In this document: positions 3,374-55,246 of the stretch, in pieces
Layout of the letters: each line of letters opens with the position of its first letter
Position numbering within the stretch: position 1 is the stretch's first letter
Source: Amycolatopsis pittospori
GTDB taxonomy: Bacteria; Actinomycetota; Actinomycetes; Mycobacteriales; Pseudonocardiaceae
Direction: 5' to 3'
Assembly: GCF_013870525.1 (NCBI RefSeq)
Contig: NZ_JACBXD010000006.1
Coordinates: forward strand, 62,001 to 126,000
DNA: 64,000 bases
The notes under the pieces: model-generated
The model's database searches: none
The model's input: the letters and a program-made list of their open reading frames with translations, nothing else
What the model was told of the DNA's origin: nothing
Made by a program: the position numbers and the translations under genes

Positions 3374-3410
3374 TCTTGCCTTGCCAACGCCCTGACCTGC
3401 GTGCAAGATC
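3372..3410. terminator. Hairpin between convergent operons
   Basis: An 8-bp perfect inverted repeat (GATCTTGC / GCAAGATC) with a 23-base loop lies exactly between the rightward gene ending at 3373 and the leftward gene ending at 3418. The position suits a bidirectional terminator, although the loop is long and there is no clear U tract. Confidence 0.4.
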
Positions 3411-3417
3411 GGTGACA

Positions 3418-13313: not shown

Positions 13314-14771
13314 GTGGCAACCCTGGCGATCGGTGACGCACCGTCCCTGGTAGATCAGCAGTGGATCAATCGCCTCGTGCGCTGGCACAACAACGAGCTG
13401 CCGGAGCTGCGAAAGCTGCTCGACTACTACGAGGGCGCTCAGAAGCTCTCGTACATGCACCCCGAGCTGGTGGATACGCTCGATGAGCGGGTGCGCCAGG
13501 TGGTCATCAACTGGCCGCGTCTGGTCGTCGATGCGCTGGAGGAGCGGATCGACCTCCAGGGCTTCCGGCTCGGCGGGCAACCCGCCAACGACATCGAGCT
13601 GGACCACGTCGCCCAGTACAACGACCTGGACGCCGGGTATCAGCAGGCGCACGTCACCGCGATGGTGATGAAGCGGGCGTACGCGATCGTCGGCAGTAAT
13701 CCCCGCGCCGCTGACGCGAAATACCCGCTGGTGACGATCGAGTCGCCGCTGGAAGTGCACGTCGAACTCGATCCGGCCACGCGCCGGGTGGTCGCCGCGA
13801 TCAAGCGGTGGCACGACAAGCTTCCCGACGACCAGGTCCGCTACTACCTCACGCTTTACCTGCCGGACTACACCGTGACGTTCGTTGTCTCGCCGGAGCG
13901 CGGCGGATACGTCGAGGTCTCCCGTGACGACCACGGCCTCGGTGAGGTCCTGGTGGTGCCGATCGTGAACCGGCCGCAGCTGTGGGCGCCGCTGGGAACG
14001 TCCGAGCTGGCCGACGTGATCCCGTTGTCGGACGCGGCCTGCAAGGTCGCCACGGACATGATGATCAGCGCGGAATTTCACGCGATGCCGCGCCGCTGGG
14101 CGCTCGGGTTCGACGAGGACGACTTCACCGATAAGGACGGCAAGAAGGTCTCGGTCTGGCAAACCATCGCGGGCAAGATCTGGTCCACGTCGAAGACCAA
14201 GAAAGACGACGGTGCGGAAGTCGGTCAGTTTGCCGAAGCGGATCTCACCAACTTCCACAACACCCTCCGGGCGCTGGCGACCCAGGTGTCCACAGTGTCC
14301 GGGATGGCGCTCCACAACCTCGGCTACTCCAGCGACAACCCGGCCAGCGCCGATGGAATCCGTGCGGCTGAGGCCCGCCACGTCAAGCGCGCCGAGCGCC
14401 GCATTAAGGGCTTCGAAACCGCATGGGAACGGATCATGCGGCTCGTCCTGCTGGTGCGCGACGGCTCCGTGCCCGATTCCGCGCGGTGGATGGAAACGGT
14501 GTGGGCGGACGCGGCGACGCCGACGTTCGCGCAGAAGTCCGACGCCGTGGTGAAGCTCTACCAGGCCGACAAGCTGGTGCCGCGCCGGATGGCCCGCCGA
14601 ACGCTGAACTTCACCCAGGCCCAGATCCTCGACATGGAACGCGAAGACCGCGAGGACGTCACCCGAGCCATGTACGACCCGGCCAGCGAGTACGGGGTCA
14701 AGCCGACGCCCGAGCCCCAGCCGGCAACCTCTGCCCGCGCTCCGGTTCCCGCGGGGGCCGGACCGCGATGA
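13314..14771 (+). CDS. Portal protein, SPP1 gp6-like
   Basis: A 485-residue portal with GTG start. The N-terminal WINRLVRWHNNELPELRKLL and YYEGAQKLSYM match the SPP1_gp6-like portal family. The mid-part has INWPRLVVDALEERIDLQGF, and the stem/crown region includes GMALHNLGYSSDNPASADGI and a helical RRIKGFETAWERIM. Residues after about 460 are Pro/Ala-rich. It forms the dodecameric ring through which DNA enters the head. The stop overlaps the start of the MuF-like gene (ATGA). No strong ribosome site is visible, perhaps because a reverse gene was inserted just upstream. Confidence 0.9.
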   Translation: MATLAIGDAPSLVDQQWINRLVRWHNNELPELRKLLDYYEGAQKLSYMHPELVDTLDERVRQVVINWPRLVVDALEERIDLQGFRLGGQPANDIELDHVAQYNDLDAGYQQAHVTAMVMKRAYAIVGSNPRAADAKYPLVTIESPLEVHVELDPATRRVVAAIKRWHDKLPDDQVRYYLTLYLPDYTVTFVVSPERGGYVEVSRDDHGLGEVLVVPIVNRPQLWAPLGTSELADVIPLSDAACKVATDMMISAEFHAMPRRWALGFDEDDFTDKDGKKVSVWQTIAGKIWSTSKTKKDDGAEVGQFAEADLTNFHNTLRALATQVSTVSGMALHNLGYSSDNPASADGIRAAEARHVKRAERRIKGFETAWERIMRLVLLVRDGSVPDSARWMETVWADAATPTFAQKSDAVVKLYQADKLVPRRMARRTLNFTQAQILDMEREDREDVTRAMYDPASEYGVKPTPEPQPATSARAPVPAGAGPR

Positions 14772-15748
14772 CTACGGCCTTCGCTCCGACGCTGGGGATC
14801 GATCACCTCGACTCCACGCAAGCGATCGTCCGGCGAGAGGTCGAGCAGGTGCAGCGCGCGTGGCGCGGCCTGGACCCGGAGGGCCTGCGGCCCACCTTCG
14901 CCGCCAAGGTTGCCCCGGTGCTGGTCTCCGCGATCAGCACCGGGCAGATCAACGCTGCCGCACTGGCTGCCCCCTACGTCTCCGACGTCCTGGCCGACGA
15001 ACCTACTGTCGCGCAACCGCCCGCTGTCATCCCGGCGGCGTTCGCCGGGGTGACGACGACCGGGCTGCCGCTGGCATCCCTGGCGGACCTGTTGTTCGTC
15101 CGGCTGCTCGCCGACATCGGCGCTGGCATGTCCACCGCCGACGCCCTGCTGAGCGGGCTGCGGCGGGCGCTGACCTATACGGCCACGGAGATCACCGACG
15201 CCGGGCGCACCGCGACCCACGTCCAGCTGATCGCCGACACCCGCGCGGCCGGATATGAACGCGTCGTCCGGCTCCCTGCGTGCGACCGCTGCATCATCCT
15301 GGCGGGACGGCTTTACCGGTACTCCCAAGGTTTCCGGCGGCATCCGCGGTGCGACTGCACGATGACTCCGGTGACCCGCGAACAGTGGCGCGAAGAGAAT
15401 CTCGCCAACCATCCGCGTGCGCTGTTCGACGCGATGACTGAGCACGACCAGAACTCGAGATTCGGTGCCGGGAACGCCGCCGCCATTAGAGCCGGAGCTG
15501 ATCTGTCCCAGGTCGTCAACGCACGCCGGGCCGCGATGCCCATAGCCGGGCGCTGGACCACCACCCAGGGCATCAGTTCGCGCGGACTCGCCGGAATCCG
15601 CATGGGCCAGCTACGCACGCAGCCCGGCCACCGCTACCGCATGTCCCAGTTCGCCCGTCCGACGGCGGGCCAGCTGATCGGCGACTTCTCCGGCGCGTCG
15701 CGCCCGGAGCTGATCGCAGCGCTACGCCGCTACGGCTATCTGCTGTGA
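14768..15748 (+). CDS. MuF/VG15-like minor head (capsid maturation) protein
   Basis: A 326-residue protein starting at ATG 14768. The N-terminal ~150 residues are helical. The MuF-type core contains LPACDRCIILAGRLYRYSQ and RRHPRCDCTMTP, the Cys-rich motif typical of phage minor head proteins of the VG15/MuF kind. Such proteins sit at the portal vertex and may be ejected or help maturation. The C-terminus ends in a small helical domain (ARPTAGQLIGDFSGASRPEL). Coupled to the portal by a 4-base overlap. Confidence 0.8.
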   Translation: MTTAFAPTLGIDHLDSTQAIVRREVEQVQRAWRGLDPEGLRPTFAAKVAPVLVSAISTGQINAAALAAPYVSDVLADEPTVAQPPAVIPAAFAGVTTTGLPLASLADLLFVRLLADIGAGMSTADALLSGLRRALTYTATEITDAGRTATHVQLIADTRAAGYERVVRLPACDRCIILAGRLYRYSQGFRRHPRCDCTMTPVTREQWREENLANHPRALFDAMTEHDQNSRFGAGNAAAIRAGADLSQVVNARRAAMPIAGRWTTTQGISSRGLAGIRMGQLRTQPGHRYRMSQFARPTAGQLIGDFSGASRPELIAALRRYGYLL

Positions 15749-39059: not shown

Positions 39060-39977
39060 ATGCTCGCGGAGTCGCGGGGCCTGTCGATGGAGGCCGAGCA
39101 GCTGTACCGGGCCTTGCTCGACGGACGCCCGACGAAGCCGGGTGCCGCGTTGACCGAGCTGGAAGGATTCGGCCTGGTCCGGGCTGGTGCGGGCGGGGTC
39201 GAGGTGTGCCCGCCGCGTGCCGCGTTGTCGGCGTTCGCCGCGCAGCACGAGGCCGCCGCCGTCCGCGCGCGGGAAGCGGCCGAAGTACTCGGCGCCGCGT
39301 ACTCGCTGCGGACCGGACGGGACGCGGATTTCGTCGAGGTGCTGCGTAGCCGCGACGAGGTGATCGCCACGTTCGAGGCGATGCAGACCCAGGCCGCCGT
39401 GGACATCGTGGCGCTGGACCCGGGTTCGTACATGAGCCCGAAGCCGGAAGTGAGCGAAGTCCAGCCGGGCTCGATGGCGCGCGGCATCGCGTACCGCGTC
39501 GTCTACGACTCGTCGTTGCTCCAGGACGACGACGGCTTCAACCAGGTGCAGTCGAGTATCGCCCTCGGTGAGCAGGCCAGGGTGTTCCCCAGGCTGCCGC
39601 TGAAGCTGGTGATCGCCGACAGCAAGCGAGCCCTGATCGCCGTGCCGAACTCCGACGCCGGGGACGTGCTGGCGTTGCTGATCCACCCGTCGATGCTGCT
39701 GAGCGCGCTGATGGAGTTGTTCGAGTCGTTCTGGCGGATGGCGGTGCCGGTCCGCGCCGGCGGACCCGGCGACGCGGCGGCGGCCCAGGAGCCGACGCTC
39801 GCGACCCGCCGGCTCCTCGCCCTGCTCAGTGGCGGTCTGACCGACGAGGCGATCGCCCGCGAACTCGGGATCAGCGAACGCACGGTACTCCGGCGGATCA
39901 GCCGTCTGCAGCAACTCCTGGGCGCGCAGACCCGGTTTCAGCTGGGCGCGCAGGCGTCGCGTCAGGGCTGGCTCTGA
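39060..39977 (+). CDS. LuxR-type HTH transcriptional regulator
   Basis: A 305-residue protein; ATG 39060 after GGGGGGAGAA is preferred to GTG 38982. The N-terminal segment (SRGLSMEAEQLYRALLDGRP) resembles a TrmB-like winged helix. A central sensor-like domain covers about residues 80-210, and a LuxR-type HTH lies at the C-terminus (LATRRLLALLSGGLTDEAIA, RELGISERTVLRRISRL). This layout is common in Streptomyces and Amycolatopsis regulators of unknown signal. It is convergent with the PucR-type gene, overlapping it by 16 bases. Confidence 0.8.
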   Translation: MLAESRGLSMEAEQLYRALLDGRPTKPGAALTELEGFGLVRAGAGGVEVCPPRAALSAFAAQHEAAAVRAREAAEVLGAAYSLRTGRDADFVEVLRSRDEVIATFEAMQTQAAVDIVALDPGSYMSPKPEVSEVQPGSMARGIAYRVVYDSSLLQDDDGFNQVQSSIALGEQARVFPRLPLKLVIADSKRALIAVPNSDAGDVLALLIHPSMLLSALMELFESFWRMAVPVRAGGPGDAAAAQEPTLATRRLLALLSGGLTDEAIARELGISERTVLRRISRLQQLLGAQTRFQLGAQASRQGWL

Positions 39978-41245
39978 GCCGGCACGTCCGAAGTGGACTC
40001 GTCCGGTGGCCGGGTGCCGAGCAAGTGGTGTGCCCGCAGGGCCATCTGGATCTCCAGACGTTCGGCCGGATCCGCGAGGCGATCGCCGAACAGGTCGCTC
40101 AGCTGACTGACGCGGTAGCGCACGGTCTGCGGGTGGATGCCGAGATCCTGTGCGATGTCCAGCGTGCTGCCCTTGTGCTCCAGCCAGCTCAGCAGCGTTT
40201 CGCCGAGCCGGACCTGTTGTTTCACCGTCAGGTCGGCGAACGGCGCGAGCGCCTTGTTCGACACCTCGTCGAGCAGGAACCGGTCGAGCAGCAGCCAATG
40301 CGTGGACAGATGGTCCGAAGTCCGGAGCACCGCGCGGTCTTCGATCACCCCGCGGCCCGCCAGGTCGAGTGTGCGCCGGGCCCAGCGCAGTGAGGTCGCC
40401 GCGTCGGCCGGGTGGACCCGTGGCCCGATCGCGGCGCGCCAGCCCGGCAGCCTGCCGTCGAGGTCGCGCAGATCGCGGCGGGGATTCGGCGTGAGCAGGC
40501 AGGGTTCGGTGCCTTCGAGATCGAGCAGGACGTCGTCGGGGACACGCGGTGCCGGGATCTGGTGCTGTTCGTCGCGCGGATCCAGTGCGACGACGCAGAT
40601 CCACTCCGGCATCTCCCACTGCGCGGCCTTCGCCATCGTCGCGATGGTCGCGGGAGACGACGGGGGAGTGGCGAGCAGCAGTTCGAGCAGCCGGCGTCGC
40701 CGCCGTTCCAGGGTGCCGGTCGCGGACGCCTGCGACAGCGTGTAGCCCTCCACCGAATGGGACGAGATCTCGTCCACGTAAGCGAAAATGGCTTCCGCGC
40801 CGATGCAGAGGACGGCCGGGGAAAGGCGGTGGGCCTGTCCGAGCTTCGCCACGTAACGCAGGGCCGCCCGGCCACCCGCGCGGTAGGCCGCCTGCAGGGT
40901 GTTCAGGCTTCCGCCGTCGCGATGCACCCGCTTGCCGACCTCGACGAACAGCTTCACCCAATTGTCCGGTGGCGCCTTGAGATCCCCGATGCTGTCGAGG
41001 CAGCTGAGCACCGCCTGCTCGATCGCCAGCACGATGATCTTGCCGAACTCGCCGTCCAGCGGTTTGGCGTATTCGGGGACGGCCTCCTGGATCTCCTCCA
41101 GGATCCGCCGCGCGATCGGATCCGCGTGCGGCCGGAATCTGCGCGCCACCTCGGCGGGCAGGGAGCACCAGAGCCGCTGCGCCTGGCCCGCCGCTCTGGG
41201 CCGGCCGACCAGGTCGTGTTCCGAGTTCGTGGCCGTTCGAGTCAT
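39962..41245 (-). CDS. PucR/CdaR-type transcriptional regulator
   Basis: A 427-residue protein starting at ATG 41245 (MTRTATNSEHDLVGRPR). The N-terminal helical RsbRD-like domain (about 20-165; RRILEEIQEAVPEYAKPLDG) is followed by a GGDEF-like region and the C-terminal PucR HTH (LLSWLEHKGSTLDIAQDLGI, HPQTVRYRVSQLSDLFG). It is divergent from the DHA2 exporter gene across 316 bases and probably controls it and perhaps the neighbouring lipid operon. The signal is unknown. Confidence 0.85.
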   Translation of the reverse strand: MTRTATNSEHDLVGRPRAAGQAQRLWCSLPAEVARRFRPHADPIARRILEEIQEAVPEYAKPLDGEFGKIIVLAIEQAVLSCLDSIGDLKAPPDNWVKLFVEVGKRVHRDGGSLNTLQAAYRAGGRAALRYVAKLGQAHRLSPAVLCIGAEAIFAYVDEISSHSVEGYTLSQASATGTLERRRRRLLELLLATPPSSPATIATMAKAAQWEMPEWICVVALDPRDEQHQIPAPRVPDDVLLDLEGTEPCLLTPNPRRDLRDLDGRLPGWRAAIGPRVHPADAATSLRWARRTLDLAGRGVIEDRAVLRTSDHLSTHWLLLDRFLLDEVSNKALAPFADLTVKQQVRLGETLLSWLEHKGSTLDIAQDLGIHPQTVRYRVSQLSDLFGDRLADPAERLEIQMALRAHHLLGTRPPDESTSDVPAQSQP

Positions 41246-41421
41246 GGCTGTACCCCTTGCCGCACACCGTCGGACGCGCACGACATGTACTCACATCGAG
41301 ACGGAAGTTGGCAACCGTCCCACTCGCGTTCGAGTGAGGTCCTGTCGCGGCGTTATCAACGACGACTTCGGAAGTTGTCACTTCGGCACGAGTTCCGTGC
41401 GGAGGCTTTTGTGACGGAGGC

Positions 41422-41561: not shown

Positions 41562-42989
41562 ATGGTCCAGCGGACGACATCGGCGGTTCCGACGCTGGTC
41601 ATGGTCGCGCTCGGGGCGTTCGTCACCACCCTCGACAACACGATCGTCGCGGCGGGCGCGCCGTCGATCGCCCGCGATCTCGCCCTCGACCTGCCCGCCC
41701 TGCAATGGGTGAGCATCGGGTACATGCTGCCGTTCGCCGGGTTGCTCCCGGTGGCGGGAACGCTGGTGGACCGGTGGGGGCAGGTCGCGACCCTGCGGGC
41801 CGGGCTGCTCGCGTTCGGCGCCGGCGCGGCCGCCGGGGGGCTGGCCGCGTCGGCGTGGCTCGTCATCTCCGCCCGCGTGGTGCAGGGCGCCGCGGCCGCT
41901 TTCCTGGTTCCCGCCCTGCTCAGCCTGCTGCGGACCAACCTCGACGCGCGAAGACGGGCTTTCGGCGCGACGGTGTGGACGGCCTGCCTCGCGGTCGCGC
42001 TGGCACTGGGCCCGACGCTGGGCGGGGTGCTGAGCGAATACCTGGGCTGGGGCTGGATCTTCTTCGTCAATCTCCCGTTCGTGGCCGCGATGCTGGCCTT
42101 GCTGCCGAAGGTCACCACGGCAGGTCGTGATCCGACGGCGGGGCGGCCCGCGGTGGTCTCGATGCTGGTGGTGACCGCCGCGATGGTCCTGGTCACCGCC
42201 GCCGTGGTCGAACTGGGCGAGGGCGGCCTGCAGGCACCCGCGGTGCTGGGCGCGCTGGGAACCGGCTTCGGGATCTGGTTCGTGTTCAGGGAAAGACACG
42301 CGCGCGAGCGGCTGGTGCCCCCGGATCTGACCGGACAGCGGGTCTTCACCGGCGCGCTCACCGTGCAGTTGCTGTGGGGACTGGGGGTCTCGGGGATCTT
42401 CTTCTTCACTCCGTTGCTGCACCAGGAATCCCTCGGTCTCAGCCCGGTGCTGGCCGGATTGCCGCTGGTCGTGGTGGCCGTCGCCGTCGTCGTCGCGACC
42501 CCGCTGGTGCCGTGGGCGGTCCCGCGCTTCGGTCCACATCGGACGGTCGCGGCGGGGCTGGCCGCGGTGGCCGCCGGACTGCTGGCGGTCGCCGTGGTCA
42601 ACCACGTCCCGGAGGTACTGCCGAGAATCCCCGGGCTCGTGTTGATCGGGGCCGGATCGGCCTTGACGACGCCGCTGACCTCGCACGCGCTGGAAATCGT
42701 GGCGGAGCGGCACGCGGGGACCGCGTCCGGCCTGCTCACCGCGTCCCGCGAACTGTCGAGCGCGCTGGGCGTCGCGCTGATCGGGACCGTGCTGGCGGTG
42801 GTGCGCACGGCGAACCTCGGTCAAGGCGATGCGTCCGCTTTGGCCTCCGGCTACACGGCGGGATTGCTGACGGCGGCGGGGTTGGAACTCCTCGGCGCGT
42901 TCCTCGCGCTCAGGTTGCTGAGCACCCGGGCGGGCGAAAGTCCGTCCCGAGGTGACAACCACGGAGACCCGTTTCTCTCGCCCCGGTGA
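41562..42989 (+). CDS. DHA2-family MFS exporter
   Basis: A 475-residue protein with about 14 predicted membrane helices; ATG 41562 after GGAAGGAG. Motif D1-like FVTTLDNTIVAAGAPSIARD in helix 1 and motif C-like LGPTLGGVLSEYLGWGWIFF in helix 5 place it in the DHA2 (14-helix drug/proton antiporter) family. Such pumps export antibiotics, dyes or lipids. Located between the PucR-type regulator and the fatty-acid/PKS operon, it could export a product or precursor of that pathway, or act independently. The C-terminal 15 residues are polar. Confidence 0.9.
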   Translation: MVQRTTSAVPTLVMVALGAFVTTLDNTIVAAGAPSIARDLALDLPALQWVSIGYMLPFAGLLPVAGTLVDRWGQVATLRAGLLAFGAGAAAGGLAASAWLVISARVVQGAAAAFLVPALLSLLRTNLDARRRAFGATVWTACLAVALALGPTLGGVLSEYLGWGWIFFVNLPFVAAMLALLPKVTTAGRDPTAGRPAVVSMLVVTAAMVLVTAAVVELGEGGLQAPAVLGALGTGFGIWFVFRERHARERLVPPDLTGQRVFTGALTVQLLWGLGVSGIFFFTPLLHQESLGLSPVLAGLPLVVVAVAVVVATPLVPWAVPRFGPHRTVAAGLAAVAAGLLAVAVVNHVPEVLPRIPGLVLIGAGSALTTPLTSHALEIVAERHAGTASGLLTASRELSSALGVALIGTVLAVVRTANLGQGDASALASGYTAGLLTAAGLELLGAFLALRLLSTRAGESPSRGDNHGDPFLSPR

Positions 42990-43028: not shown

Positions 43029-43058
43029 TTGACACTCTTCCCGGCTGATCCATACAGT
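43029..43058 (+). promoter_or_regulatory. Promoter of the acyl-AMP ligase/PKS operon
   Basis: TTGACA followed after 18 bases by TACAGT (or 17 by ATACAG), about 100 bases before ATG 43161. The -35 is a perfect consensus, rare in this GC-rich sequence. Confidence 0.55.
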
Positions 43059-43160
43059 TCCGGCAGAAAAGAACGGCCTTCCGGAATTGAATCCGATTGT
43101 GGCAACGGTGCCATTCCGGTCGAATTCACCTGCTCCCGCTCACGTCATCAACGAGGGGCT

Positions 43161-44921
43161 ATGGAAACCATTTCCGAAACGGTCGTCACCGCCTCCGGGC
43201 CGGAGGCCGCCGGCGACGGCGAGTCGTTCGCGACCCTGCTCGAATACTGGGCCCGGCGGCTCGGCGACGAGATCGCCGTGACCTATCTCGACCACCGCAC
43301 CGGTACGGACGGCCGCGCGATCACGCTGTCGTGGCGCGAACTCGACGACCGGGCCGGCGCTGTCGCCGCGCGCCTGGCCGACTTCGCCGGTCCGGGTGAG
43401 CGCGCCGCGATCCTGGCGCCGCAGTCCGCCGACTACGTCGTCGCGTTCCTCGGCGCGATCCGGGCCGGGCTGGTCGCCGTGCCGTTGTTCGCCCCGGACC
43501 TCCCCGGGCACGCGGGCAGGCTGGCCGCCGTGCTCGCCGACTGCGCGCCGAGAGTCGTGCTCACGACCGCCGACGGGATCGACGGCGTCACCGGTTTCCT
43601 CTCCACGACGGATATCGAGCGGCCCGCCGTGCTCGCCGTCGACACCCCATCTCCGGTCGCGGCCGGTGAGCGTTCCTGGCCGCGACCGGAACCGGACGGG
43701 CTGGCGTACCTGCAGTACACGTCCGGTTCGACGCGGACCCCGGCAGGCGTCATGCTGACGCACCGCAACGCGCTCACCAACGCCCGCCAGGCCTGCGACT
43801 CCTACGGCGTCGAAACCGGGACGACGTCCACGGTCAGCTGGTTGCCGCTGTTCCACGACATGGGCCTGATCCTCGGTATCGGCGCGCCGATGGTCGCCGG
43901 AGCGTCCTCGGTCCTGATGGACCCGCTCGCGTTCCTCGCACGTCCGTCACGATGGCTGCGCGCGCTTTCGGCCAGCCCGGGCGCGATCAGCGCGGCACCC
44001 AACTTCGCCTACGCCTACAGCGCTTCCCGCGTGACCGAGGACGAGAAGAGCTACCTCGAACTGAGCCGGGTCGTTTCGCTGATCAACGGAAGCGAGCCGG
44101 TGCTGCCCGCGACCATCGCGAAGTTCCACGGCACCTTCGCCGAATGCGGGCTGCGTCCCGAAGTCCACCGGTCGTCCTACGGTCTGGCCGAGGCCACGGT
44201 GCTCGTCTCGGTCACCGACGCGGCCAAGCCGCCGCGAGAGGTCACGTTCGACCGCGACCGGCTCGCCGCCGGGGTCGCGATCCCCGCCGGTCCCGGTGCC
44301 GCGGCGACCACGCTCGTCTCCTGTGGACGTCCGGCGGGCCAGCGGGTCCGCATCGCCGATCCGGCCACCGGCGCGCTCACCGAACCGGGCAAGGTGGGCG
44401 AGATCCGGGTCAGCGGCCCGAACATCGGCGTCGGCTACTGGGGGCGGCCCGACGCCTCGTCCACCGTCTTCGGGCTGCCGCCGATCGATCCGGAGTCCGG
44501 TGAGGGCTGGCTGGCGACCGGCGACCTCGGCGTGCTCTACGACGGCGAACTGTTCATGACCGGCCGGATCAAGGACCTCGTCATCGTCGACGGCCGCAAC
44601 CACTACCCACAGGACATCGAACAGACCGTGGAGGGGCATCCGGCGGTCCGGCCGCATTCGGCGGCCGCTTTCGCGATCGCGCACGAAGACGGCGAGGCGG
44701 CGGTCGTGGTGCTGGAACAGGCCAAGGGGATCGAGGCCGACGTCGTCACGGCCACGGCCGAGATCCGGGTCGCGGTGTCGTCCGCGCACGGTCTGCGCCT
44801 GCACGACGTCGTCTTCCTCGCGCCGGGCGAAGTACCACGTACGTCCAGCGGCAAGATCAGCCGCGCGCTCTGCCGGAAGTCCTATTCGGACGGTGCGCTG
44901 ACGGTTCGGCGGCTCGGGTGA
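43161..44921 (+). CDS. fadD32: Fatty acyl-AMP ligase, FadD32-like
   Basis: A 586-residue adenylating enzyme starting at ATG 43161. Motifs seen: LAYLQYTSGSTRTPAGVMLT (AMP-binding P-loop), WLPLFHDMGLI, RSSYGLAEATVLVS and WLATGDLGVLYDGELFMTGR, plus the C-terminal SSGKISRALCR. SLIxGSEP-type and the segment after GLAEAT fit fatty acyl-AMP ligases rather than CoA ligases. It would activate a long-chain fatty acid as acyl-AMP and load it on the N-terminal carrier of the PKS encoded next. The stop overlaps the PKS GTG (GTGA). In mycobacteria the same pair is fadD32-pks13. Confidence 0.88.
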   Translation: METISETVVTASGPEAAGDGESFATLLEYWARRLGDEIAVTYLDHRTGTDGRAITLSWRELDDRAGAVAARLADFAGPGERAAILAPQSADYVVAFLGAIRAGLVAVPLFAPDLPGHAGRLAAVLADCAPRVVLTTADGIDGVTGFLSTTDIERPAVLAVDTPSPVAAGERSWPRPEPDGLAYLQYTSGSTRTPAGVMLTHRNALTNARQACDSYGVETGTTSTVSWLPLFHDMGLILGIGAPMVAGASSVLMDPLAFLARPSRWLRALSASPGAISAAPNFAYAYSASRVTEDEKSYLELSRVVSLINGSEPVLPATIAKFHGTFAECGLRPEVHRSSYGLAEATVLVSVTDAAKPPREVTFDRDRLAAGVAIPAGPGAAATTLVSCGRPAGQRVRIADPATGALTEPGKVGEIRVSGPNIGVGYWGRPDASSTVFGLPPIDPESGEGWLATGDLGVLYDGELFMTGRIKDLVIVDGRNHYPQDIEQTVEGHPAVRPHSAAAFAIAHEDGEAAVVVLEQAKGIEADVVTATAEIRVAVSSAHGLRLHDVVFLAPGEVPRTSSGKISRALCRKSYSDGALTVRRLG

Positions 44922-47900
44922 GCGCGGCGATCCGTGCCTGGCTGATCGCCCGGGTGGCGGAGCGGACCGGATTGCCCGCCGGCCACGTGGATCCGGACCG
45001 TCCGCTGCACGAAAGCGGGCTGTCCTCGCGGGAGTCGATGGCCTTGGCCGCGGACCTGGGCCGGTACCTCGGACGGCCGCTGCCGCCGACCCTGGTGTGG
45101 CAGTACCCGACGATCACCGCCCTCGCCGGACGACTGTCCACAGAGGAGCAGGAATTCGTCGCGAGCGTGGAAGCCCGCGAAGAGGAGCCGATCGCGATCG
45201 TCGGCGTCGGATGCCGCCTGCCGGGTGGGAACGAGTCCCCGGAGCGGTTCTGGCGGTTCCTGGACGGCGGCGGCGACGGTATCCGCGGCGTCCCGGAAGA
45301 CCGTTGGGAGACCTTCGCCGCCGAGCGCGACCTCGACTGGCTGCCCGGGCGCGGCGGGTTCCTCGGCGACATCGCCGGCTTCGACGCCGAGTTCTTCGGC
45401 ATCGTGCCGGGAGAGGCCGAGACGATGGACCCCCAGCAGCGGATGCTGCTCGAAGTCACGTGGGCGGCGCTCGAACACGCCGGCCTCCCGCCGTCCACCC
45501 TGCGGGGCAGCCGGACCGGCGTGTTCGTCGGCCTCTCGGCGGGGGAGTACGGCCATCTGACGATGACCGATCCCACGGCGGTCGACGTCTGGTCCGCGAC
45601 CGGGGCCGCCACCAGCATCGCCGCCAACCGGCTTTCGTACCTGTTCGACCTGCGCGGCCCCAGTCTCACCCTGGACACCGCCTGTTCGTCGTCGCTGGTG
45701 GCGGTGCACCAGGCGGTACAGAGCCTGCGCCGCGGCGAATGCGGGACGGCGCTCGCCGCCGGGGTCAACCTGCTGCTGTCGCCCGCCGTCACCGCCACCT
45801 TCCAACGCGCCGGTGTGCTCGCCGTCGACGGCCACTGCAAACCGTTCGACGCCGGTGCCGACGGGATTGCGCGCGGCGAGGGCTGCGGCGTCGTCGTGTT
45901 GAAGCCGTTGAAGGCCGCCCGCCGTGCCGGTGACCGCGTGCTCGCCGTGATCCGCGGCAGCTCGGTGAACTCCGACGGCCGGTCCAACGGTCTCGTCGCC
46001 CCCAGCCCCGACGCGCAGGTCGCGCTGTTGCGTGACGCCTACGCGGCGGCGGGTGTCGAACCGTCCTCTGTGGACTACGTCGAGGCGCACGGGACCGGGA
46101 CGGCGCTGGGTGACCCGATCGAGGCCGGCGCGCTCGGTGAGGTGCTCGGAGAGGGGCGGGAGCCCGGTCGTCCACTGCTGATCGGTTCGGTCAAGAGCAA
46201 TCTGGGCCATCTCGAAGGAGCGGCCGGGGTCGCCGGGCTGATCAAGGTCGTCCTGGCGATGGTGCACCGGCGCCTGCCCCCGAGCCTGCACTACCGCGAA
46301 CCCAGTCCCCACATCGATTTCCCCGGTCTGGGCCTGCGGGTCGTCGACACCGGGACGGACTGGCCGCGCTACTCCGGTGTCGCGCGTGCCGGGATCTCCG
46401 CGTTCGGATTCGGCGGCACCAACGCCCACGTGGTGCTCGAAGAGTGGCCCGCGGCGTCGTTTCCCGCCCGGGGAAAGGACGTCGGAGGACCGCAGGTGTT
46501 CGCGCTGTCGGCGCGCTCGTCCGAAGTGCTCCGCACCCGGGCCGCCGACCTGGCCGACTGGCTCGAAGACCCGGCTCACAGTGTGGTGCCGTTGGACGTC
46601 GTCGCCGCGACGCTGGCGCGCGGCCGGGATCACCTGCCGGTCCGCGGCGCGGTGGTCGCCGAGGACCGGGACCGCGCCGCCACCGCGCTACGCGAGCTCG
46701 CCGCCGGACGCGTCGGCGGCGACGTCGTCGCCGGTGAGACCGGGCCCGCACCCGAGGTCGTGTTCGTCTTCTCCGGCTACGGCTCCCAATGGCCCGGGAT
46801 GGGCCGCCTGCTGCTGCGCACCGAATCCGCGTTCCGCGCCGAGGTCGAGGCGCTCGACCCGGTGTTCCGCGCCGAAGCCGGCTTCTCGCTGCTCGAGGTC
46901 TTCTCCGGCGAGCGCGACCTGCCGGATCTCGGGACGACGCAACTCGCGCTGTTCGGTATGCAACTCGCTCTCGCCGGGTTGTGGCGGGCGCACGGCGTCG
47001 TTCCGGCGGCGGTGCTCGGCCATTCGATGGGTGAGGTCGCGGCCGCCGTCGTCGCCGGGGCGCTCGATGTCGCCGGCGGCCTGCGGGTGATGGCGACTCG
47101 GGCCCGGCTGCTCGCGGAGGTCGACGCGACCGGTGACGGCGCGATGGCCGTGGTCGAACTCTCCCCGGCCGAACTGGCGGATCTGGAAGCGGAATTCCCG
47201 GGGATCACCGTCGCGGTCTACGCGTCGCCGGTGCAGTGCACGGTCAGCGGCGGCGCGGACCAGGTCGAAGCGCTGGTCTCGCACGTCGAAAGCCTCGGCA
47301 GGCTGGCCAGGCGGCTGCCTGTCCGGGGTGCCGGGCACTCCGAAGCCGTCGACGCCGTCCTCGGCCGGTTCCGTGCCGACCTCGACGGCCTTTCCCCGAA
47401 GACCGCCGAAATTCCTTGCTACAGCAGCGTTCTCGACGATCCACAGCGGACACCGGCGTTCGATGTCGACTACTGGGCGGCCAATCTGCGCCGTCCGGTG
47501 CGGTTCAGCCAGGCGCTGACCGCGGCACAGGCGGACGGGTACGGCGTGTTCGTCGAGATCTCGCCCCATCCGGTGGCGCTGGCCGCCATCGAGCAGAGCA
47601 CCCGGGCGCTCGCGCTGCCGTCGGCGAGCCGCAAGATCGACGAGCGGACCGCGTTCCTCGCCACACTCGCCCGGCTGCACATCCTCGGGCTGCCCGGAGT
47701 GCTCGACGCGCGCGGCCCCCGGCCGGTACCGGTCGAACTGCCCGGCCCGCGCTGGCGGCACGAACGGTTCTGGCCGCGACGCCAGGCACCCCGGTCCGGG
47801 GGCACGCATCCGTTGCTGGGTGTGCACATCGAGCAGCCGACCGGCGGAGGGCACCTCTGGCGGGCGGACGTCGGGACCGCGGGACTGCCGTGGCTGGCCG

Positions 47901-50900
47901 ATCACGCGGCGATGGGCGTCCCGCTGTTCCCCGCCGCCGGGTGCCTCGAACTGGCGCTCGCGGCGGCCAAGGCGGTTCTGCGGCCCGGCGGCGGGCAGCT
48001 GCGCGTCGGCGGCCTCGAACTGCACCGCGTACTCCCGCTCGCCGCGCACACCGAGGTCACCACCAGCCTGAGCACCGGTTCTGCGCAAGGACAGGTGGAC
48101 GTCTACGCCCGCTCCGCCCACGGCGGCTGGATCCGGCACGCCACCGCTCGCGTCCGCGACGGGGACACCCCGCTGGTGCCGTTCGGCGCGACCGGCGGGG
48201 ACACCCGCCCGGTCGACCTCTACCGGGTCCTGGCCGGGATGGGACAGACCTACGGCCCGGCTTTCCGTGGGTTGCACGGGGTGCTGGCCTCACCCGGGCG
48301 CGCCTCGGCGTCGATCACGATGCCGGCCGATCACCCGGCGTACGTCCTGCATCCGGTGATCGCCGACGCCTGCCTGCACGCGCTGGCGGCGGCCACCGGG
48401 GACGCGCTCGGCGAGACGGACGGCGCGTTCCTGCCGCTGACGCTCGGCGAGGTCGTGCTGGCCGGGGATCCGCGTCGCGGTGTCCGGGTCGACGCCGTCC
48501 TCGACTCACTCGACCCGGCGGGAGACGGCCTGGTCGGCAGCGTCCAGCTGGTCGACGCCGCCGACGCCGTCCTGGTCGAGTTCCGCGAGGTCTACTGCCG
48601 CCGGTTCCAGCGTTCGGCGTTGCCGGTCCCGATGGAGGACCTGCTGTTCGAGACCGTCTGGACGCAGGCGGACCTGCCCGCCGCCGGACCGCGGGCGCAC
48701 AGCTGGGTCGTGCTGTACGACGCCGAGCACCAAGGAGCGCCGTGGCTGACGGCGTTGGGCGACCGGCTCACCGAGACCGGCGACGAGCTGGCGACGGTGC
48801 CGCTCGGCGACCGGGTGGAGCTCGCGAAACTCTTGCGATCCCGTGAAGTGACGGGCGTGCTCGTGTGCACCGCGACGGCCGACGAGCCGGACCCGATGCG
48901 GGCCGGGCGGACGGTCGCCACGCTTGCCGGCGTCGTCGCCGAGCTGGCCGAGGCGGCGTCTGTGCCACGGTTGTGGCTGCTCAGCGCGGGCGCGTCGGCC
49001 GTCGAACCCGGCGAGACCGGCGACCCCGACCAGGCCTGGCCGCGTGGGCTGATCCGGGTCCTCGCGTTCGAACATCCCGAACTGCGGGCGAGTCAGGTCG
49101 ACTTCGACGCCGAGCCGGATCCGGCCCGGCTGTGGGTCGACCGGCTGGTGGCGGAGATCCGCGCGGACGCCCCGGACGACGAAATCGCCTGGCGTGAAGG
49201 GATCCGCTACACGCGGCGGCTCGCCCGTCCGCAACTCGGCGAACGCGGCCACGAAACCGTTGTGCGCGAAGGCGCTTACGTGATCACCGGTGGCCTTGGC
49301 GGTCTCGGGCTGGTCGCGGCGGAGTGGCTGGCCGGGCGCGGTGCGACGCGGCTGGTGCTCTCCGGCCGTCGTGGCGCGGGCCCGGATACCGAACCCGCAC
49401 TGGTGGCTCTGCGTGAACTGGGTGCCGACGTCCGGATCGTGACGGGCGACATCGCCGGGCCGGGTACGGCCGAGGCGCTGGTCGCGGCGGCCACCGAAGA
49501 CGGGATGCCGTTGCGTGGCGTGCTGCACGCGGCCGGTGTCCTGTCCGACGGCGCCGCCATCACCGTCGACACCGACGCGGTCGACACCGTCTGGCGGGCG
49601 AAGGCGTTGGGCGCGTGGCGGTTGCACGAGGCGACCGCCGGCCACGACCTCGACTGGTGGCTGACGTATTCGTCCGCGGCCGCGTTGTTCGGCTCACCCG
49701 GCCAGGCCGCTTACGCCACCGCGAACGCCTGGGTGGACGCGCTCGTCGCCTCGCGCCGGGCGAGCGGTCTGCCCGCGGCCACCATCGCGTGGGGTGCCTG
49801 GGGCGAGGCCGGAGCGGCCGTCGGCAGCCGGAACCCGGTGCTCGAACCGCTCGGCACCGAAGAGGCGCTGGCGGCACTGGACGCCGTGCTGTCGCGTGAC
49901 CGCGGGTCGACCGGGATCGCCCGCGTCGACGCCGGGACCGTATTGGCGCTGTTCCCTCGTCTGGCCGAACGTCCGTTCTTCGAAGTCCTGGTACCGCGCG
50001 AGGAACCGGATCCCGCATCGTCGGCTTGGGACGGATTGGACGCACTCCGGGCGGTCCTGCCCGAAGCCGCGCGCGAGATGCTGGCCGATTACCTGGCCGG
50101 GCTCGTCGCCGGGATGATCGGCCTCGCCGCGGACGAGGTCGACCGGCACCGGCCGCTCACCCAGATCGGCCTCGACTCGCTCGCCGCGATGCGGGCACGA
50201 GGCGTCGTGGAACGTGATTTCGGCCTGGCACTCCCGGTTCCGTTGCTGCTGCGTGGCGCCAGCCTCGCCGAACTCGCCGACCACCTCGCCGACCAGGCCG
50301 GTTTCGGCGGGGAAACCACCCGGACCCCGCGGCCGGACGTCGTGGTCGGGCCGCGCGATCCGGCCGAACGCTGGGTCGCCCGGCACTGGCAGGCCGAACT
50401 GGGCGGTGCGGATCCGGGTGTCCACGACGACTTCTTCGATGCCGGTGGCGACACCGAAGGCGCGGAACGGCTGCGGTCGGCGTTCGCCGGTCAGCTCGGC
50501 GCCGTCCCGGACGTCGACCGGCTCTTCGCGACGCCGACGATCGCCGCGATGGCCGACCTGCTGCGCGCCGAGATCGAGGGACGCGGGAGCTGTCCGGTCC
50601 GGCCGTTGCGCGAGGGCGGCGTCGATCCGGTGTTCCTGTTCCACCCGGCGGGCGGCCCGACGAGCGTCTACGACGGACTCGTCCGGCTCCTCCCGGAGGG
50701 CAGGCCGGTCTACGGGCTCGAACGGATCGACGAAGAGGACACCGTCGAAGGCAAGGCCGACTGCTACCTCGAACTGATCCGGGAGATCCAGCCGCAGGGG
50801 CCGTACCGGCTGGGCGGCTGGTCGTTCGGCGGCTGCCTCGCCTACGAGACCGCGCGAAGGCTGACCGCGGCGGGGGAGCGGGTCGACCTCGTGTTCATGA

Positions 50901-51415
50901 TCGACAGCATTCTTCCCCTGCCCTCGGACGGGACACCGGTGGGCGAGATCCTGCTGGACCGGTTCGACCGGTTCGCCGAGCATGTCGAGCAGACCTACGG
51001 CGTGCCGCTGGACATCCCGCGCGAGGACCTCGTCCGGCTCGGCGAGGACGAGCAGATCCGGCTGGTGATCAGCAGGCTGGCCGCGCAGGTGCCCGGAATG
51101 GGCCAGGGTGTCCTTCGGCATCAGTACGAGTCCTATGTGGACGCACGGGTGGCCGAACGGTACACCCCGGAACCGTACGACGGACCGGTGCTGCTGATGC
51201 GAGCGCAGGAGCCGCATCCGCTGACCACCACCCTCGACCCGCGGTACCTGCGCACCGACGACGCCCTCGGCTGGGACGCCTACTGCGGCGCCCTGGACGT
51301 CGTGCGGGTTCCGGGTGACCACCTGTCGATGATCGATCCGCCGCATGTCGAGGTGGTCGCCGCAGCGCTCGCGGACCGGCTCGCGGCAAGCGGGGAAAGG
51401 GTGACGCGGACATGA
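44918..51415 (+). CDS. Pks13-like condensing polyketide synthase with added DH and KR
   Basis: A 2165-residue protein. Domain order: N-terminal ACP (Ser37 in ESGLSSRES), KS (about 88-510; Cys256 in DTACSSS, later [12 protein letters not shown]), AT (about 605-900; Ser703 in GHSMGE; the specificity region reads GAGHS), DH (about 960-1230; His in [11 protein letters not shown] and Asp in DACLH), KR (about 1445-1640; GGLGGLGLV, Tyr in [12 protein letters not shown]), ACP (Ser1754, IGLDSL), a second carrier with Thr1846 in GGDTEG instead of Ser, and TE (Ser1969, GGWSFGG). Pks13 of mycolate makers is ACP-KS-AT-ACP-TE, about 1730 residues. The extra DH and KR would reduce and possibly dehydrate the alpha-branched beta-keto acid. 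Confidence 0.88.
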
Positions 51416-53001
51416 CCCTCGAAGACATCCCGCTGGACCCGACGACCGCGTTCCGGATCGCGGATCTCGCCGCCCGCCAGGACGAGGCCGTCCGGATCGC
51501 GGAGAAACGGGCCGTCGACCGCCAGCACGCCAAGGGCAAGCTGACCGCTCGCGAACGCATCGACCTGTTGCTGGACCCGGGTTCCTTCGTCGAACTCGAC
51601 CAGTTCGCCCGGCACCGCTGCACCGAATTCGGGATGGACGCCAACCGGCCTTACGGCGACGGCGTCGTGACCGGGCACGGCACCGTCGACGGCAGGCAGA
51701 TCTGCGTGTTCTCGCAGGACTTCACCGTGTTCGGCGGCAGCATGGGGGAGGTCTTCGGCGAGAAGGTCCTCAAGGTGATGGACCTGGCGATGACGCTGGG
51801 CTGCCCGGTGGTCGGCATCAACGATTCCGGCGGCGCCCGGATCCAGGAAGGCGTCGTCTCGCTGGCGTACTACGCCGAACTCGGCAGGCGCAACGCCCTC
51901 GCTTCCGGCGTCATCCCGCAGATCTCGCTGATCATGGGGCCGTGCGCGGGTGGCGCGGTCTACTCGCCGGCGATCACCGACTTCACCGTGATGGTCGACG
52001 AGATCGCGCATATGTTCGTCACCGGGCCGGACGTCGTGCACGCCGTCAGCGGCGAGCGGGTCACCGCCCAGCAACTCGGCGGTGCGGCGATCAACAGCGA
52101 AGTCTCCGGGAACGCCCATCACCGCGCCGTCGACGAACAGGACGCCATCGACTGGGTGCGGACCCTGCTCGGCTACCTGCCGTCCAACAACCTGGACGCC
52201 GCACCGGAGTACGCCGACGACACCGATCCGGAGCTCACCGCCGCCGACCTCGAACTGGACCGGCTGGTGCCCGACTCGCTGAACCAGGCCTACGACATGA
52301 CCGAGGTGATCGCCCACCTCGTCGACGACGGCGATTTCACCGAGGTGCACAGCGCGTTCGCGCCCAACATGATCTGCGCGTTCGGCCGGGTCCAGGGCCG
52401 CACGGTCGGTGTCGTGGCCAACCAGCCACGGCACCAGGCGGGCGTGATCGACATCGACGCCTCGGAGAAGGCCGCGCGGTTCGTGCGGTTCTGCGACGCC
52501 TTCAACATCCCGCTGCTCACGCTCGCCGACGTCCCCGGCTATCTGCCCGGCGCGGCACAGGAACGGCACGGGATCATCCGGCGCGGCGCCAAACTGATCT
52601 ACGCCTACTCCGAAGCGACCGTGCCGAAGGTGACCGTCGTGACGCGCAAGGCCTACGGCGGCGGCTACGCGGTGATGGGATCGAAGCATCTCGGCGCGGA
52701 CGTCAACATGGCCTGGCCCACCGCGGAGATCGCGGTGATGGGCGCGGAAGGCGCGGTGCGGGTGCTGCACCGGCGCGAACTGGCCGCGCTGCCCCCGGAA
52801 CAACGGGTCGCGGAGCGAAGACGGCTCACCGAGGCCTACCGCAAACGGCATTCGAATCCCTACCTCGCCGCCGAACGCGGCTACGTCGACCAGGTCATCG
52901 CGCCGTCGCAGACCCGCCTGCAGGTGGCGCGGGCCCTGCGCGCGCTGCGCACCAAACGGCAGACCCTCCCGGCCAAGAAGCACGGAAACATCCCTTTGTG
53001 A
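51412..53001 (+). CDS. Acyl-CoA carboxylase carboxyltransferase (beta) subunit
   Basis: A 529-residue carboxyltransferase whose start overlaps the PKS stop (ATGA). Typical sites: [57 protein letters not shown] and [20 protein letters not shown], with the usual C-terminus KKHGNIPL. This matches the PccB/AccD5/AccD4 group of actinobacterial acyl-CoA carboxylases. With a separate biotinylated alpha subunit (not in this window) it would make the carboxyacyl-CoA extender used by the AT of the PKS, as AccD4 does for Pks13. The sequence looks closer to PccB/AccD5 than to the longer AccD4. Confidence 0.85.
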
Positions 53002-53014
53002 CCAAGGAGAAGTG

Positions 53015-54001
53015 ATGAACCGAACGCGGCGCTGGGGCCTGCTGGTGCTGTCCATGGCCGCCCTGCTCGGGACGAGTCTGACGTCGGTCCCGGCGGCCGC
53101 GGTGACGCCGACCGCCGACAACGGCGCGAAAGTGGTCGAGGAGACCTGGCTGGACGCGCGCACGGTCGACCTCAAGATCAACTCGCCCGCCCTCGGCACC
53201 ACCGGCATGGTCCGCCTGCTGGTCCCGGCAGGCTGGGCGGCGCAGCCCACGCGGACCTGGCCGACGCTGTACCTGCTGCACGGCTGCTGCGAACCGGTGG
53301 ACTACCGGTCGTGGGACCAGTTCACCGACGTCAAGGCGTTCACCGCGAACAAGGACGCGCTCGTCGTCATGCCGACCGGCGGTCCGGCGGGCATGTACAC
53401 GAAATGGTGGAACTTCGGTCTCAAGAGCACTCCGGACTGGGACACCTTCCACACCTTGGAGGTGCGGCAGCTCGTGGAGCGCGGATACCGGGCGGGCACC
53501 AAACGCGCGATCGCCGGGCTGTCGATCGGCGGGTACGGCGCGCTCGCGTACGCCTTCAAGCACAAGGGGATGTTCGGCGCGGCGGCGTCCTACAGCGGTG
53601 TGCCCAACACGCTCTACCCGGGAATTCCCCTGTTCATCCAAGGGATCCTGGCCCGCGCGGGCATCTTCAACTACCTCGAACTCTGGGGCGACAGCTGGGG
53701 GATGTGGCCGCTCTGGTCGGCGAACAACCCGTACGACCACGTCGACGACCTGCGCGGTACCGCGCTCTACATCTCCTGCGGTAACGGGAAGACCGGTCCG
53801 CTCGACCCGCCAGGGCAGTCCGACATCCTCGAACCGTCCGCGCTTTCGGCGTCGACGAGTTTCACGGACCGCCTGAAGACCAAGGGAATCCCGGTGACCA
53901 CCGACTACTACGGCGTCGGCACCCACAGCTGGCCCTACTGGCAACGGGCGCTGCGCAACTCCTGGCCGGTCCTCGCCAGTGCCCTCGCACTCCCCGCCTG
54001 A
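53015..54001 (+). CDS. Secreted antigen-85-like esterase/acyltransferase
   Basis: A 328-residue protein. ATG 53015 is favoured by AAGGAGA just upstream. A signal peptide (about 1-31; MNRTRRWGLLVLSMAALLGT ... AAA) precedes an esterase-D/antigen-85 fold. Catalytic elements: Ser in GLSIGGYGALAYAF, an Asp/Glu in LDPPGQSDILEPSAL region, and His in VGTHSWPYWQRAL, which is almost the antigen 85 motif. Antigen 85 proteins transfer mycolates to trehalose and arabinogalactan outside the membrane. Here it directly follows the PKS-carboxylase genes and likely transfers or hydrolyses their product. Confidence 0.85.
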   Translation: MNRTRRWGLLVLSMAALLGTSLTSVPAAAVTPTADNGAKVVEETWLDARTVDLKINSPALGTTGMVRLLVPAGWAAQPTRTWPTLYLLHGCCEPVDYRSWDQFTDVKAFTANKDALVVMPTGGPAGMYTKWWNFGLKSTPDWDTFHTLEVRQLVERGYRAGTKRAIAGLSIGGYGALAYAFKHKGMFGAAASYSGVPNTLYPGIPLFIQGILARAGIFNYLELWGDSWGMWPLWSANNPYDHVDDLRGTALYISCGNGKTGPLDPPGQSDILEPSALSASTSFTDRLKTKGIPVTTDYYGVGTHSWPYWQRALRNSWPVLASALALPA

Positions 54002-54031
54002 TCCGATTCCCTTTCCCCGATGGAGGTTCCG

Positions 54032-55246
54032 GTGAAACCTGCCCGATTACTCTGCGCGACCCTGGCCCTTTGCGCGGCTTCGCTGGGCGTCGTCACGGCG
54101 ACGTCGTCAGCCGCAGCCGAGCCGTCGGCCGCGGCCGTGGGACTGCCCGGTCCCTTCGACGATTCGTTCTACAAGGCGCCGTCGCCGCTGCCTGCCGGGA
54201 ACCCCGGCGACGTCATCCGGTGGCGGCCGGCGGTGCCGCTGATGAACATCGCGAACGCGGACGCCTGGCAGGTCATGTACCTGTCGACCAACGCGCTCGG
54301 CAATCGCAACGCGGTCACCGGCACCATCTTCACGCCGAAGGGGGTCGACCTCGGGAAGGCACCGATCGTCGGCTTCGCCGTCGGCACGCAGGGCCCGGCG
54401 TTCAAATGCACACCGTCCAAGGCGATCCAGCGCGGCACACTGTACGACCAGCCCGCGATCAACGACTCGATCTCGAGCGGCTACGCGGTCGCCGTCACCG
54501 ACTACGAGGGCTACTCGGCGACGACGGTGCCCACCTACATCACCGGTCGGTCGATGGGACCCGCCGTCCTCGACTCCGTCCGGGCCGCGCAGAACTTCTC
54601 GCCCGCGAAGCTGTCCAAGAGCGCCAAGGTGATCGTCCAGGGCTACTCGCAGGGCGGCGGCGGCGCGATGTGGGCGGGGGAGAAGCAGCCCACCTACGCA
54701 CCCGAGTTGAACCTGGTCGGCGTCGTCGCGGGCGGTGTCCCGGCCGACCTGACCGAGGTGGCCAAGGGACTCGACGGCTACATCGGCTTCGGATTCCTGG
54801 CCTTCGCCGCCGTCGGCCTCGACGCCGCGTACCCGGACCTGAAGCTGGACTCGTACCTCAACGAAACCGGCCGTAAGGAACTGGGCGACGCCAAGAAGAA
54901 CGCGTGCGTCGCCGAACTGCTACTGAACTACCCGTTCAAGAAGATCAGCGACTACACGACGTCCAACCCGCTGAACACGCCGCAATGGCAGGCCCGGCTG
55001 GCACAGAACAAACTGGGCGCGAACCCGCCGCGGGTCCCGGTGTTCCAGTACCACGCGACGACGGACGAGATCGTCAACACCCCGCAGGCGGAGGCCCTGC
55101 ACAAGGCGTACTGCGCCGCCGGAGTCCGTGAGCAGTGGAAGACCTACATCGCCGAACACGCGACCGGCATCGTCGCGGGGAACGCCGATTCGCACCAGTG
55201 GATCGTGAAGCGTTTCGCCGGCGAACCGGCCCCCACCAACTGCTGA
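54032..55246 (+). CDS. Secreted LIP-family lipase
   Basis: A 404-residue protein. GTG 54032 is chosen since GGAGG lies 5 bases upstream. Signal peptide about residues 1-30 (KPARLLCATLALCAASLGVV). The alpha/beta-hydrolase has VIVQGYSQGGGGAMWAGEKQ with the nucleophile Ser, TDYEGYSATTVPTY after the oxyanion strand, HATTDEIVNTPQAEALH with the Asp, and a His in ADSHQWIVKRF. This is the secretory (LIP) lipase family common in actinobacteria. It may hydrolyse an extracellular ester made with the PKS product. A long hairpin follows. Confidence 0.85.
   Translation: MKPARLLCATLALCAASLGVVTATSSAAAEPSAAAVGLPGPFDDSFYKAPSPLPAGNPGDVIRWRPAVPLMNIANADAWQVMYLSTNALGNRNAVTGTIFTPKGVDLGKAPIVGFAVGTQGPAFKCTPSKAIQRGTLYDQPAINDSISSGYAVAVTDYEGYSATTVPTYITGRSMGPAVLDSVRAAQNFSPAKLSKSAKVIVQGYSQGGGGAMWAGEKQPTYAPELNLVGVVAGGVPADLTEVAKGLDGYIGFGFLAFAAVGLDAAYPDLKLDSYLNETGRKELGDAKKNACVAELLLNYPFKKISDYTTSNPLNTPQWQARLAQNKLGANPPRVPVFQYHATTDEIVNTPQAEALHKAYCAAGVREQWKTYIAEHATGIVAGNADSHQWIVKRFAGEPAPTNC

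Follow-up and report, generated by a model that had tools for sequence, protein, structure and literature searches.

What would a bacterium from a genus without known mycolates do with an operon that resembles the mycolic acid locus? The question is raised by a stretch of 64,000 nucleotides of the Amycolatopsis pittospori genome (contig NZ_JACBXD010000006.1, positions 62,001 to 126,000; hereafter the window), in which five open reading frames (ORFs), all on the + strand, span exactly 43029-55246. The genome behind it comprises 8.4 Mb in 192 contigs and is 97% complete. In the reading that we prefer, with somewhat more confidence than doubt, these genes specify lipid condensation of the Pks13 type with the reduction taking place in cis, and their product may be an undescribed branched, exported lipid. 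What sequence comparison establishes is the family placement of the synthase, its domain order, the catalytic motifs and the gene linkage; the chemistry built upon them is plausible. The genes are as follows.

41562-42989, + strand: exporter of the major facilitator superfamily (MFS), nearest the DHA2/EmrB type (Pfam MFS_1, 153.5 bits; best NCBIfam model TIGR00711, 166.8 bits, below its cut-off of 230.2).
43029-44921, + strand: fatty acyl-AMP ligase (FAAL), 630 amino acids (AMP-binding, 211 bits).
44918-51415, + strand: reducing Pks13-family polyketide synthase (PKS), 2165 amino acids (best NCBIfam model mycolic_Pks13; KS-AT tree).
51412-53001, + strand: carboxyltransferase subunit of an acyl-CoA carboxylase (AccD), 529 amino acids (Carboxyl_trans, 638 bits).
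53012-54001, + strand: secreted mycolyltransferase-like esterase (EST) of the antigen 85 superfamily, 329 amino acids (Pfam Esterase PF00756; PDB matches; signal peptide judged by eye).
54020-55246, + strand: secreted lipase of the LIP family, 408 amino acids (LIP, 194 bits; PDB lipase A, 146 bits; signal peptide judged by eye).

The third-position GC content is coding-like for all five operon ORFs, which are tightly packed, with 4-base overlaps at the FAAL/PKS and PKS/AccD junctions and gaps of 10 and 18 bases before the EST and LIP genes, respectively. An earlier interpretation made from the letters alone (the original prediction) had named this order of acyl-AMP ligase, PKS, carboxyltransferase, esterase and lipase, and both the ORFs and Pfam agree with it. 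The limits that it drew hold for these five genes, but the MFS gene ahead of them probably belongs to the transcription unit as well. Translation of the FAAL probably begins downstream of the first start codon of its ORF, since an ATG near 43161, judged by eye, matches the lengths of the homologues.

The synthase has the order ACP-KS-AT-DH-psiKR-KR-ACP-(degenerate ACP)-TE (acyl carrier protein, ketosynthase, acyltransferase, dehydratase, pseudo-ketoreductase, ketoreductase, thioesterase). Pfam finds ketoacyl-synt, Acyl_transf_1, PKS_DH_N, PS-DH, KR, three PP-binding stretches and Thioesterase in it, and detects no enoyl reductase (ER) domain. The family-wide counts given here refer to 124 distinct synthases having KS and TE, a set that is not free of close relatives or of species entered twice, from two collections.

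44918-45157, + strand: N-terminal ACP with the GLSS serine (PP-binding; serine motif in 124/124 synthases).
45185-46294, + strand: KS domain, DTACSSS (Pfam; best single-domain PDB match taken as Pks13, 506 bits).
46760-47674, + strand: AT domain, GHSMG and GAGH (Pfam, motifs).
47807-48619, + strand: DH domain (PKS_DH_N, PS-DH; two motifs, of 10 and 11 residues, present).
48680-49237, + strand: DH-KR linker or, as its position and the MAS PDB alignment to residue 1450 suggest, a structural pseudo-KR.
49271-49804, + strand: KR domain with NADPH motif, Lys, Ser, Tyr and Asn (KR, 186 bits; motifs).
50087-50287, + strand: ACP with GLDSL (best PP-binding stretch; DSL in 124/124 synthases).
50360-50587, + strand: degenerate second carrier domain, Thr replacing the serine (GGDTEGA; PP-binding, phmmer map).
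50600-51397, + strand: TE domain of the Pks13 type (PDB match to Pks13-TE).

DH and KR domains with catalytic residues between AT and ACP had been foreseen, and both are there with their motif sets intact. The carriers had to be recounted, as there are three, one ahead of the KS and two past the KR, and a pseudo-KR or linker separates the DH from the KR. At the aligned position of the second C-terminal carrier only 2 of the 124 synthases have the serine motif. The KR has an LxD motif (VLSD) and no A-type Trp, features that point to the B type.

Several lines of evidence place this synthase beside Pks13. Its best NCBIfam model is mycolic_Pks13, but the score of 1341 bits is under the curated cut-off of 2100 and DH and KR interrupt the order ACP-KS-AT-ACP-TE, so that it falls outside the Pks13 equivalog. 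MAS-type iterative PKS provide the best full-length PDB match (MAS 965 bits, Pks13 918), with an alignment running through the DH to residue 1450, but differ from the window synthase, which has an N-terminal ACP and a TE, shows no ER by Pfam and has a KS nearer to Pks13 (Pks13 506, CurL 465, DEBS 432, MAS 381 bits). The top PDB row for the KS, 7zma with 624 bits, sums two matched stretches; we take Pks13 to be the best single-domain match, with single KS constructs of presumably the same source as 7zma scoring 318 and 312. The TE is likewise nearest to Pks13-TE, at 157 bits against 102 for the next other protein. In trees built from hand-picked samples (91 KS, 58 and 46 KS-AT, 64 KR and 32 AccD rows; L113 is missing from the KS tree), 77 Pks13 and Pks13-like KS rows are separated from the 14 modular or iterative ones (support 93/87), with 12 true Pks13 forming one clade (100/100). 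The KS-AT tree of 58 rows separates Pks13 and Pks13-like synthases, the window synthase among them, from modular PKS with 100/99. This grouping of the KS with Pks13 is the result that the original prediction had named as its own test. The KS tree, the KS scores and the KS-AT tree speak against a modular or MAS-type PKS as parent of the KS; in the KS-AT tree the synthase lies outside the modular clade, unlike ordinary type I PKS of the modular or iterative kind. The AT motif points the same way: it is GAGH, and GASH or GAGH occurs in 12/12 true Pks13 and in none of 14 distinct modular ATs (YASH 7, HAFH 4, IAFH 2, TAGH 1). With its N-terminal ACP, KS-AT clade, AT motif and Pks13-type TE, the window synthase can be assigned to a Pks13-like superfamily, of which the N-terminal ACP is not an exclusive mark. 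A FAAL-loaded two-module PKS in genome G087 (L215, 7088-19001, together with its FAAL) has one too; that genome also contains a true Pks13, and the AT motif of this PKS is VAPH.

The family had thus been named rightly, but this Pks13-like family is widespread, with the window synthase on one of its branches, and the same genome holds a second such operon. On contig C53 (L009, 5260-12229) a FAAL that extends past the contig end is followed by a non-reducing Pks13-like synthase (ACP-KS-AT-ACP-TE) and an MFS gene, and this operon has counterparts in other genomes of the genus.

The partner proteins agree with this placement to different degrees. The FAAL combines AMP-binding with a DIP2-like AMP domain (Pfam), and its best NCBIfam model, PRK12476 fatty acyl-AMP ligase with 569 bits, identifies it as a FAAL. 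For the EST, the best PDB matches are PS1 (166 bits), Cmt1 (79) and Ag85A (76), the best other esterase scoring 51.5, and Ser 171, Glu 274 and His 305 (ORF numbering), which we take to be the Ag85 catalytic triad, are invariant in 23/23 aligned sequences. The claim of an antigen-85-like secreted transferase is borne out by these nearest solved relatives and the retained Ser-Glu-His. The AccD falls in a 13-row clade (94/94) with operon AccDs of other Pseudonocardiaceae. It scores 738 bits against L204 of its own genome, which we infer to be a housekeeping-like (PccB/AccD5) paralogue, and 564 and 568 bits against two complete AccDs of mycolate loci. An aspartate considered as a substrate marker of AccD is common to nearly all types and does not discriminate.

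The operon is conserved well beyond A. pittospori. A contig scan gave 182 relatives, and the best 80 were kept as related loci. They include Amycolatopsis, Actinokineospora, Saccharopolyspora, Actinopolyspora, Kibdelosporangium, Saccharothrix, Kutzneria, Herbihabitans, Actinosynnema, Lentzea, Bailinhaonella, Streptomyces and Actinacidiphila, as well as a Solirubrobacteraceae bin and a record that bears the name Rhodococcus. The closest named loci, with about 90% TE identity, are those of the Amycolatopsis azurea, thailandensis, keratiniphila and orientalis group, and TE relatives of at least 58% identity occur in 26/36 genomes of the genus, its own included. KS and TE were found together in 77/80 loci, and these 77 have FAAL in 77, KR in 68, EST in 62 and AccD in 48 cases; over all 80 loci, MFS is found in 52, cutinase in 22, LIP in 19 and an MMPL-like gene in 19. 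Neighbours were counted by phmmer or blastp with queries from the window or from clusters, so that divergent genes may escape and a match is not necessarily in the same operon; Pfam confirmed two cutinase members and one MMPL member. Since FAAL accompanies all 77 synthases with KS and TE, the association of the genes is not due to chance. In the 30 Amycolatopsis loci with KS and TE, EST is found in 28, AccD in 25 and LIP in 15, which makes LIP the variable member. Cutinase lies upstream of the FAAL in both mycolate loci L075 and L076, and in L076 two PF00756 esterases follow on the far side of the cutinase; therefore the kind of gene set, besides the synthase, is shared with the mycolate loci.

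A number of observations were made on the surroundings of these operons. A PucR-type regulator gene at 39962-41281 (- strand) is a candidate regulator of the window operon, and its blastp cluster is present in 45/94 related loci. Eight Streptomyces loci (L145, L149, L150, L153, L156, L157, L159, L160) have the order AccD, FAAL, non-reducing Pks13-like PKS and mycolyltransferase-like esterase, with cutinase nearby. In L126, genes for a ferredoxin-type reductase and a fatty-acid desaturase lie at 1915-4174, beside its Pks13-like operon, their blastp clusters covering 5 and 4 loci from 5 and 4 genera, respectively. Near the Pks13-like operon of L116 there is, at 13640-15238, a PMT_2-type glycosyltransferase whose cluster occurs in 7/94 loci from 6 genera, possibly hinting at a sugar acceptor. 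L147, from the record titled Rhodococcus rhodnii NRRL B-16535, was not counted as evidence from a mycolate genus, since its genome measures 12.4 Mb and has no Pks13 over the cut-off. That genome is rich in modular PKS, and the record is probably mislabelled and near Kibdelosporangium.

Several results weigh against the preferred reading. The likeness to the mycolate locus is weaker for two of the proteins: in the AccD tree, whose base is unresolved, the window AccD lies apart from the two AccD4 rows rather than grouping with them, and the FAAL reaches only 517 bits with the FadD32 model (cut-off 975). A long alpha branch on the product is therefore something that we infer only, and the placement of the AccD feeds the alternative of methylmalonyl. 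The AT motif varies inside clade A, to which the window synthase belongs (GAGH 18/28, other variants 10/28), and no EST was found at 15 of the 77 loci having both KS and TE. The exporter resembles drug-efflux MFS and not MmpL3; an MMPL-like gene, which accompanies a minority of the related loci (19/80), was not seen in the examined part of the window. MMPL-family matches occur at 8 places in the genome. Finally, the FAAL-loaded two-module PKS of genome G087 branches as the sister of the Pks13-like clade (support 100/99 for the two together, 83/86 for its place outside the clade). Because of this sister position, part of the resemblance to Pks13 may reflect FAAL loading, and KS grouping alone is no proof of mycolate-type chemistry. 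Altogether, the original prediction was right about the operon and the family, and its interpretation is supported in part.

Taking the Pks13-type condensation pathway as the preferred reading, the FAAL would adenylate a fatty acid and load it onto the N-terminal ACP, while the AT would place a carboxylated acyl-CoA, made by the operon carboxyltransferase with biotinylated subunits of the host, on the C-terminal ACP. The KS would join both chains in one decarboxylative Claisen step and the KR would reduce the beta-keto group. The DH, whose motifs are intact, would probably convert the product to a 2-alkyl-2-enoyl acid; otherwise the product would remain a 2-alkyl-3-hydroxy acid. A small acceptor, perhaps a sugar, may then receive the acid from the TE, the MFS protein may export the product, the mycolyltransferase-like EST may transfer the acyl group to an extracellular acceptor, and the lipase may remodel the ester. 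An arabinan acceptor is plausible, since the genome encodes an Emb-type arabinosyltransferase (604 bits).

The alternative that survives best, unlikely as we consider it, is that the AT takes a small extender, methylmalonyl-CoA or malonyl-CoA, so that the operon would make a 2-methyl-3-hydroxy or 2-methyl-2-enoyl fatty acid for a secreted glycolipid of the glucolipsin type. It is favoured by the AccD, which as shown above is nearer to L204 than to the AccDs of mycolate loci, and by the DHA2-like exporter. The GAGH motif of the AT, rather than YASH or HAFH, argues against it, as does the window operon, which has no glycosyltransferase, although the PMT_2-type cluster occurs in a few related loci; the AccD aspartate does not help it. 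Glucolypsin, known from Streptomyces and Nocardia, is described as consisting of two glucose units and iso-branched chains with a 2-methyl and a 3-hydroxyl group (PMC4365757). A mass matching glucolipsin A was reported only when Actinokineospora spheciospongiae EG49 was grown together with a Rhodococcus (PMC7918646), and strain EG49 holds two reducing loci (L108, L133). The glucolipsin paper is also cited in a metabolomics study of A. keratiniphila (PMC10221244), a species that has L085 and L127.

Improbable is a secreted secondary metabolite such as an antibiotic, surfactant or signal, whose lipid part this operon would supply; EST and LIP would then serve as hydrolases for tailoring or resistance rather than as wall transferases. 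The MFS homologues in 52 of the 80 loci, the patchy occurrence in the genus (26/36 genomes) and the several diverged versions of the family within one genus are consistent with it. On the other side, the EST is mycolyltransferase-like and recurrent tailoring genes are few: beyond PKS, FAAL, MFS, EST, AccD and the PucR-like regulator, no neighbour family exceeds 24/94 loci, the most frequent being LIP (24), MMPL-like (23) and cutinase (22). That the organism makes true mycolates missed by chemotaxonomy is very unlikely. Arabinan machinery and Pks13-like genes are present, but its genome (97% complete, 192 contigs) yielded no Pks13 scoring above the curated cut-off, and the 14 of 121 genomes of the order that have one all belong to family f8 and none to its own family, f1. 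The premise of a genus without mycolates is supported by this result and by the definition of Amycolatopsis as lacking mycolic acids, stated in a review (PMC8037709). Least credible is a decayed or non-functional relic, to which the degenerate carrier domain might point, as this degeneracy is nearly family-wide, no other examined motif is impaired, the reading frames are uninterrupted and several genera have conserved the operon.

How the reductive domains arose can be followed across the family. KR is present in 90 of the 124 synthases, and these 90 retain the Lys and the NADPH motif in all cases and Tyr and Ser in 89 each, while the DH His is kept in 77. Ketoreduction therefore looks like the constant step and dehydration like the variable one. 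Eight reducing forms from Streptomyces and Actinacidiphila (L128, L129, L130, L134, L138, L140, L142, L143) keep the KR and have no aligned DH His; in L136, from a Solirubrobacteraceae bin, the Pks13-like synthase has a DH, and a KR was not detected. The KRs of 45 sampled Pks13-like synthases group in a single clade, apart from those of 17 modular and two FAAL-loaded rows (98/95). In the KS-AT tree, however, forcing 33 reducing rows together is rejected by the approximately unbiased (AU) test, with a p of 0.015 that is somewhat flattering, as the groups were named after inspection of the KS tree. KR presence needs three changes on that tree; L136 was left out of both this count and the test. 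Six rows (L189, L187, L186, L177, L190, L192) were classed as reducing by ORF length; a KR was later found in the genomes of L187, L190 and L186 and, via L060, of L189, the KS of L192 is identical to that of the reducing L133, and L177 is classed by length only. Because the KRs form one clade while the reducing synthases do not, the data are most simply read as a single origin of the KR, probably followed by repeated loss in the non-reducing forms. The AU tests do not establish a place of true Pks13 within the reducing family: holding the other rows together without true Pks13 gave p values of 0.059 (KS-AT) and 0.398 (KS). We therefore offer only tentatively, and with more doubt than conviction, a scenario in which reducing, FAAL-loaded Pks13-type synthases with an extracellular acyltransferase are ancestral, have spread through Pseudonocardiaceae and Streptomyces and make 'proto-mycolates' there, and the Pks13 of mycolic acid synthesis would be a descendant stripped of DH and KR, with a separate enzyme carrying out the reduction.

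Among the closest known systems is the Pks13/FadD32/AccD4 locus. It shares with the window operon the FAAL, the PKS (N-terminal ACP, KS, AT, ACP, TE) and the carboxyltransferase, as well as the KS-AT clade, AT motif and TE type, and in L076 the PF00756 esterases with cutinase nearby; it differs in that the window synthase has DH-psiKR-KR, a linked MFS gene and an AccD apart from AccD4. The non-reducing Pks13-like operons of contig C53 and of Streptomyces share FAAL, ACP-KS-AT-ACP-TE and the KS superclade, but have no DH or KR. With the antigen 85/Cmt/PS1 mycolyltransferases the EST shares its best PDB matches and Ser-Glu-His. The mycolate reductase CmrA would carry out the same beta-keto reduction as a separate protein, whereas the window KR is predicted to act in cis. 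Loss of mycolate reductase leads to beta-oxo-mycolic acid analogues (PMC2568869).

In the literature covered, neither a reducing Pks13 nor Pks13-like operons of Amycolatopsis were found described, which is weak evidence of absence, as most subscription papers lie outside it; an account of the origin of the mycolate condensation system was not found there either. Mycolic acids mark one actinobacterial group. The conserved Pks13-like operons outside the mycolate genera, both reducing and non-reducing, suggest a hidden class of alpha-branched lipids, and with them the question of how the mycolate locus arose becomes testable in harmless soil bacteria.

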